Shown: one piece after another, positions 13,867-14,629 of the stretch
How the letters are laid out: each line of letters starts with the position of its first letter
Numbering within the stretch: the stretch's first letter is position 1
Origin: a virus
Strand: one strand, 5' to 3'
Virus record (IMG/VR): IMGVR_UViG_3300023179_000031
Coordinates: 1-64,000 of that record
Length of the DNA: 64,000 nucleotides
Notes under the pieces: generated by a model
The model's database searches: none
Seen by the model: only the letters and a program-made list of their open reading frames with translations
What the model was told of the DNA's origin: nothing
Program-made: the position numbers and the translations under genes

Positions 13867-13884
13867 TAGTGTATATATTAAAGG
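13866..13884 (+). promoter_or_regulatory. Candidate late promoter, copy 1
   Basis: TTAGTGTATATATTAAAGG is nearly the same as the motifs at 17317 and 31011 (one base shorter in the tail). It lies 31 bp upstream of the ATG of the exported thioredoxin gene and has no -35 like box. See the finding on the three-copy motif. Confidence 0.5.
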
Positions 13885-13914: not shown

Positions 13915-14259
13915 ATGAAAAATTCTAGCACAATAACTGTACTCTTAATATCCTGTTTGATATCAATTTCTTCAGTTTTAGCATTTGAAATTCAACCAAA
14001 GAAAACATTACTCATTTTTTCAGCGGATTGGTGCCATTACTGCAAAGTGGCACAAAAAGACATGACGCAAGATATAAAACTATCTGAAATGATCAAGAAC
14101 TACGACATAATCGAATTGGACTACGACGTTGACAAAGACGTTGTAAGGGGCTATAATATCAAAGTCGTGCCATCGTTCGTAATCATGCATCAAGGCAAAG
14201 AGCTTGGACGCAAAACTGGATACAACGGGGCATCATCATTGTATAACTTTCTTAAATAA
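13915..14259 (+). CDS. Exported thioredoxin-like protein
   Basis: 114 aa. A signal peptide (about residues 1-23, ending SVLAF) precedes a thioredoxin fold with redox motif WCHYC and the cis-proline strand VVPSFVIMHQG. After export it would act on disulfides in the periplasm or cell envelope; the short length and CHYC centre resemble TlpA/DsbD-type thioredoxins rather than cytosolic phage thioredoxin used with ribonucleotide reductase. It stops one base before the tmRNA. ATG 13915 has AAGGGGG upstream. Confidence 0.85.
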   Translation: MKNSSTITVLLISCLISISSVLAFEIQPKKTLLIFSADWCHYCKVAQKDMTQDIKLSEMIKNYDIIELDYDVDKDVVRGYNIKVVPSFVIMHQGKELGRKTGYNGASSLYNFLK

Positions 14260-14260
14260 T

Positions 14261-14614
14261 GGGGGCGTAAAGGTATCGATTGGATATAGAAAATTACATT
14301 AGCAAGTAGTAGGTGGTATGGTGGCTACTATAAAACCATACTAAACGCTTTAACTGGCGCAAATCAGTTAGCCCTTGCTGCTTAATAACTAAGCAGTAAC
14401 AGATTGCGATTGCGATGAAGGTAGCGGTCAAAAATCTGTCGTTAAATCCTTCGGCTCCCGTTAGTGGTGACGGTTAACGGGCCAAGATGTGTCACTAGGA
14501 ATGGTGAATGTTGTTCATTCTTTATCCATATCCGAATCTTTATGAATGAAATAAACTTGTAGAAAATGTAATCGGACATATCGCAAGACGGGGATTCGAC
14601 TTCCCCCGCCTCCA
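14261..14614 (+). ncRNA. ssrA: Transfer-messenger RNA (tmRNA)
   Basis: Acceptor GGGGGCG (14261-14267) pairs with CGCCTCC (14607-14613), discriminator A 14614; no CCA encoded. T arm GGGGA-TTCGACT-TCCCC is at 14591-14606. The tag frame starts at resume codon GCA (14359-14361) and encodes ANQLALAA, then tandem TAA TAA (14383-14388). The upstream AGTAGGTGG and AAAACCATAC regions look like tmRNA helix 2/pseudoknot 1. The RNA would rescue stalled ribosomes with SmpB and tag the nascent chain for proteolysis. Being phage-encoded is uncommon. Start and end are set by the acceptor pairing. Confidence 0.93.
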
Positions 14615-14629
14615 CTGGAAATTTTAAGG

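Follow-up and report, generated by a model that had tools for sequence, protein, structure and literature searches.

A tmRNA rescues stalled ribosomes and tags incomplete proteins for degradation. We asked whether positions 14261-14614 of a virus record encode a genuine tmRNA and, if so, which tag this RNA would add to stalled proteins. The window analyzed here is the whole stretch of 64,000 nt (IMGVR_UViG_3300023179_000031, positions 1-64,000). In the Rfam covariance-model search of the window, RF00023 (tmRNA) matched at 14261-14617 on the plus strand with 104.7 bits (cut-off, 47; E = 7e-40), and the match spanned the whole model (positions 1-374). Only tmRNA and tRNA families reached the cut-off in the window. 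The first-pass annotation had described a full tmRNA at 14261-14614 and had named this search as a check; thus, its main claim was confirmed.

The gene (14261-14614, plus strand) is a one-piece ssrA gene, and the features below lie on the same strand. The mature RNA begins at G14261 and ends at the discriminator A14614, and CCA is not encoded. In the tRNA-like domain, GGGGGCG (14261-14267) pairs with CGCCUCC (14607-14613) to form a 7-bp acceptor, which contains the alanine identity pair G3-U70. The T-arm, GGGGA-UUCGACU-UCCCC, is located at 14590-14606 and has a UUCRANU-type loop. At position 53-61 of the T-arm, an A-U pair (A53-U61) replaces the near-universal G-C, as it also does in the L032-type and L042 copies. 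Four pseudoknots are present: PK1 at 14307-14341 (stems 14307-14312/14325-14330 and 14316-14321/14336-14341), PK2 at 14400-14452 (14400-14405/14433-14438 and 14417-14421/14448-14452), PK3 at 14457-14496 (14457-14463/14475-14481 and 14466-14471/14491-14496) and PK4 at 14501-14550 (14501-14504/14526-14529 and 14514-14520/14544-14550). The 7-bp acceptor, the UUCGACU T-loop and the tandem TAA TAA stops noted in the first-pass annotation were all present in the sequence.

We then collected related genes. A scan for the tag identified three viral contigs that encode it unchanged, and in a scan for the 5' end, in which 80 of 99 stretches were examined, ARAGORN called at least 31 additional tmRNAs whose tags are of this kind and begin with Gly. 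Thus, at least 34 further viral contigs carry the same kind of tmRNA, and there are 35 copies when the window is counted. ARAGORN called three tRNAs in the window and did not call the tmRNA at 14261-14614, although close relatives were found. This common annotation program can overlook such genes, and annotation pipelines that depend on it will miss the tmRNA of the window. The tmRNA region had no DNA match in 50,697 phage records, and two phage proteins tested against the phage collection had no protein match.

Covariation was analyzed in an alignment of 23 phage tmRNAs, with a structure hand-written from the copy of the window. Across 83 stem pairs, the four pseudoknots included, 93.7% of the cells were paired, as compared with 39-51% when the partners were slid. 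Two-sided changes were found in 58 of the 83 pairs (30 in shuffles), and none of 500 shuffles reached any of the observed values; as the structure was taken from one of the aligned sequences, these figures carry some bias in its favour. This bias does not account for the fact that all four pseudoknots show two-sided changes. Such changes were found in both stems of PK1 and many times in PK2, the stems of which were 99-100% paired; PK3 and PK4 also covaried. The pairing of the pseudoknots, on which the first-pass claim had been staked, is therefore supported by covariation across the relatives. The acceptor, including G3-U70, was invariant in the 23 sequences except for one compensatory change from C-G to U-A. 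The E-value and the covariation together rule out chance as the origin of the window's tmRNA.

The gene has also been retained across phages in which the identity between shared proteins is often no more than 25-75%. In the nearest relative, a 57-kb contig (G002), the tmRNA lies at the same place, after a thioredoxin gene. In the more distant 233-kb contig (G001), it lies at a different place. A tree was built from 171 tmRNAs, and the 25 distinct phage sequences all fell into one clade with a support of 0.997; the place of this clade among the bacterial tmRNAs was not resolved by the tree, in which the nearby supports were mostly 0.3-0.5. These data bear on the idea that the gene is a passenger, that is, a host tmRNA taken along by an integrating element, or host DNA within the contig. 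tmRNA 3' ends are known integration sites, and the position of the gene in G000 and G002 is unlike that in G001, as a passenger might show. However, phage genes surround the tmRNA in many contigs, the phage tmRNAs form a clade of their own without the CCA that bacterial copies encode, and they are under selection. Furthermore, no integrase was noticed near the tmRNA on inspection. The passenger idea is already largely refuted, and we give it next to no weight. Structure, reading frame, tag and conservation across diverged phages were observed directly, and we hold with good confidence, as the best explanation taken as a whole, that the window holds a true tmRNA gene, maintained by selection in a large, uncultured tailed phage.

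The reading frame was examined next. The RNA around it reads UUUAACU GGC GCA AAU CAG UUA GCC CUU GCU GCU UAA UAA. In E. coli tmRNA, the main frame signal is A86, four bases before the resume codon, and its change to C or U abolished activity in a KanR assay (PMC2481249). With GGC as the resume codon, A stands at -4 and U at -5; with GCA, U would stand at -4 and C at -5, and U at -4 is a change that abolishes activity in E. coli (PMC2481249). Since only the GGC frame provides the essential A at -4 (UAACU|GGC; signal at 14351-14355), in which it is the counterpart of A86, we assign GGC as the resume codon. In agreement with this, GGC is the resume position in the Rfam alignment, and the GGC codon together with -5U/-4A is invariant in all 35 phage copies. 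Accordingly, the tag is GANQLALAA, encoded at 14356-14388 (GGC GCA AAT CAG TTA GCC CTT GCT GCT TAA TAA) and joined after the alanine borne by the tmRNA; ARAGORN read the same tag in three sister loci. The first-pass annotation had begun the tag at GCA, one codon too late, and had given it as ANQLALAA. Its residues and stops stand, while its start and the resume codon are corrected here.

The tag is thus a short frame with a hydrophobic -LAA end before the stops TAA TAA. Among the matches listed, 30 of the 35 phage tags end in QLALAA, and the changes in those codons are mostly synonymous. Positions 2 and 3 vary (AN, TN, ET, NN, SH and NT). These phages provide a diverse tmRNA clade in which selection on the tag is visible. 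We considered whether the RNA is instead a decoy that occupies host SmpB or tmRNA factors and is not active in trans-translation. A molecule of phage DS6A that consists of the TLD only has been likened to such inhibitors (PMC4131195). A decoy would need neither a tag frame nor stops nor four pseudoknots, all of which are kept here by selection, so this reading seems very improbable. We conclude that the phage tmRNA is real and probably working.

In the first-pass annotation, the LALAA ending was taken as less usual than YALAA, and one suggestion was that the tag could redirect tagged host proteins. Neither point was upheld. Tags of the type GxxQLALAA are native to Chloroflexota, to one Bdellovibrionales genome (GNDQLALAA) and to Planctomycetota (GNNQLALAA); hence, several bacterial phyla have it as an ordinary type, and GNNQLALAA of Planctomycetota also occurs as a phage variant. 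A related proposal is that the phage tag is tuned unlike that of the host and alters the fate of tagged proteins, so that host proteins are degraded or phage proteins are spared. The variable positions 2 and 3 would suit it, as would the phage resume codon for Gly, given that the Planctomycetota closest for a neighbouring phage gene (see below) resume at Ala. However, the protease-facing LAA/LALAA end is kept, as in many bacterial tags, and the shared GNNQLALAA also speaks against a tag that differs from the host's. We regard this proposal as unlikely. Routine targeting of tagged proteins to ClpXP of the host would be in keeping with the conserved -LAA end.

Which bacterium is the host? The tmRNA profile scored highest for some Planctomycetota (up to 92, as compared with about 69 for the best other sequences). 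In G001 and G003, the tmRNA is immediately followed by a DUF1501 gene (PF07394); L100 and L086 have an endonuclease gene in between. The DUF1501 gene, an odd cargo for a phage, was found at L002:2422-3669 (minus strand) with a twin-arginine-like signal, and also downstream of the tmRNA in L004, L100 and L086. Its best cellular matches are in Planctomycetota (64-65% identical over the full length), and matches at E 1e-100 were found in 24 of 246 Planctomycetota genomes and in none of 241 Verrucomicrobiota genomes. The DUF1501 gene may therefore serve as a lead toward Planctomycetota as host. In the Planctomycetota that carry DUF1501 genes, the tags resume at an Ala codon and include ANKQFSMAA and ANDNFALAA. 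The phage of the window itself has no DUF1501 gene in its 122-kb record, possibly an incomplete one, so its host is a guess. A trypsin-family serine protease gene (PF00089, window:17365-18141), with relatives in G001 and G002, was tried as another host marker, and no match at E 1e-15 was found in 192 Bdellovibrionota and 198 Bacteroidota genomes.

Directly upstream of the tmRNA, at 13915-14259 (plus strand), lies a gene for a thioredoxin-fold protein (PF00085, 2e-11) with an N-terminal signal-like segment. Its ORF ends at 14259, one base before the tmRNA, as the first-pass annotation had stated. A thioredoxin homologue occupies the same place in four relatives (L003, L027, L034 and L059) according to the flank clusters. 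Since this arrangement leaves no space for a promoter, the tmRNA is probably processed from a longer transcript. A promoter-like GTGTATAWW at 13869, 46 nt 5' of the thioredoxin gene, was considered and set aside, as the motif was not enriched (5 seen, 4.2 expected).

We infer from the sequence how the tmRNA may be expressed, charged, bound by SmpB, coupled to proteolysis and of benefit to the phage. It would be excised from the transcript shared with the thioredoxin gene, and a host enzyme would add CCA, which is encoded in none of the 35 phage copies and generally encoded in the bacterial copies sampled. SmpB was not found in the three phage records searched, which may be incomplete. From the lack of encoded CCA and of a detected SmpB, the tmRNA appears to rely on the host for CCA addition, AlaRS, SmpB and proteases. 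Host AlaRS would charge it with alanine via G3-U70, and the charged RNA would be bound by SmpB of the host and would enter ribosomes that have stalled on broken mRNA, an event expected to be frequent in infection. Translation would resume at GGC, the stalled chains would receive A-GANQLALAA, and ClpXP-type proteases of the host would degrade them. The phage may benefit when the host tmRNA is limiting or no longer made, as ribosomes and amino acids would be recycled. The clade makes it testable why phages keep their own ribosome-rescue RNA and yet borrow SmpB and CCA addition from the host.

Directly 3' of the tmRNA, 14 of the 35 loci carry a gene of about 580 bp for an HNH-type endonuclease, the ORF of which starts no more than about 60 nt from the 3' end of the tmRNA. 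The ORF has no Pfam match and is similar to the HNH/endonuclease VII-type families phrog_3322, phrog_1035 and phrog_3118 (E 6e-22 to 1e-9). The site was recorded in L003, L032, L041, L044, L054, L086, L094 and L102, and as an empty site in L100. Comparison of L086 (occupied) with L100 (empty) revealed a clean insertion: the two are homologous up to position 356 of the tmRNA and again beyond an extra 581 bases, and the insert in L086 still contains the former tmRNA end as a 12-nt copy (TCGCCTCCACTA). The same picture was obtained with L054 and L037. In the relatives, selfish DNA thus has a hot spot at the 3' end of the tmRNA gene. The window lacks an HNH gene at this place, which is taken up by about 1.35 kb of other sequence.

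The T-stem is GGCAG/CUGCC or GGGGA/UCCCC in all 14 occupied loci, recoded yet still paired. Of the 20 loci that are unoccupied and have sufficient sequence downstream, other T-stems are present in 18 and the occupied type in two (L059 and the window); GGGGA/UCCCC is common to the window and five HNH-bearing relatives. Because many of the occupied loci are near copies, the association holds for about eight distinct sequences and not for 14 independent events. In the leader of the HNH gene, a fold with a CUCC stretch hides the gene's own Shine-Dalgarno sequence, and several have a TATAATA-like box in the loop; the leaders of I-TevI, SegB and MobE of T4 have a similar design (PMC2988022). We tentatively suggest, at somewhat below an even chance, that the HNH protein is a homing endonuclease that targets the tmRNA gene, that the two-strand T-stem change keeps the tmRNA working and makes it uncuttable, and that the window has lost the endonuclease and kept the immune T-stem. 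If true, this would clearly exemplify a homing endonuclease directed at an RNA gene that is conserved, with immunity conferred by compensatory recoding of a stem. The free-standing SegB and MobE of T4 (PMC2988022) are alike in that the endonuclease gene lies beside an RNA or conserved gene and a hairpin covers the ribosome-binding site. They differ in that the HNH gene here, which the window lacks, is beside a tmRNA and not a tRNA and is accompanied by T-stem recoding.

Other genes of these phages were also observed. A small exported-looking protein (window:15020-15358) is 93% identical over 73 aa to a G001 protein, whereas most genes shared by the window and G001 are about 25-75% identical; its high identity reflects either recent transfer or strong constraint. 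The G001 block that matches this region lacks the thioredoxin-tmRNA pair. A replicative polymerase, putatively DnaE-like by its motifs, is in two parts, beginning at window:63987-64000 and running into L005. Between the parts are an exonuclease-like gene and an HNH-like gene (L005:1628-2323), the latter with a match in G002 and none in G001. The genes for a UvdE UV-endonuclease (PF03851, window:5574-6500) and for a thymidylate synthase, ThyX-like by motif (window:19436-20086), are among those that these phages conserve best.

tmRNA genes have been reported in about 2% of phage genomes (402 of 18,146; PMC9004378). The mycobacteriophage Bxz1 group and Bacillus phage G (PMC4131195) resemble the present case in having a complete one-piece ssrA gene in a large phage, and they differ from it in that the region of the window has no DNA match in the phage records searched and specifies GANQLALAA with a Gly resume codon. 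The pelagimyophage Melnitz (PMC9004378) also carries a tmRNA in a large genome, together with RNR and thyX, and the ThyX-like gene of the window is about 5 kb from its tmRNA. However, the tmRNA of Melnitz and its kin is a two-piece permuted form with a glutamine riboswitch (PMC9004378), whereas that of the window is one-piece. Bacterial GxxQLALAA tmRNAs share the Gly (GGC) resume codon, the 9-aa tag, the ending and, in some, the acceptor, but they encode CCA and are distant in overall sequence from the phage copies. Phage tmRNAs are thus already known, and the copy of the window is a well-supported new example from a sizeable phage tmRNA family.
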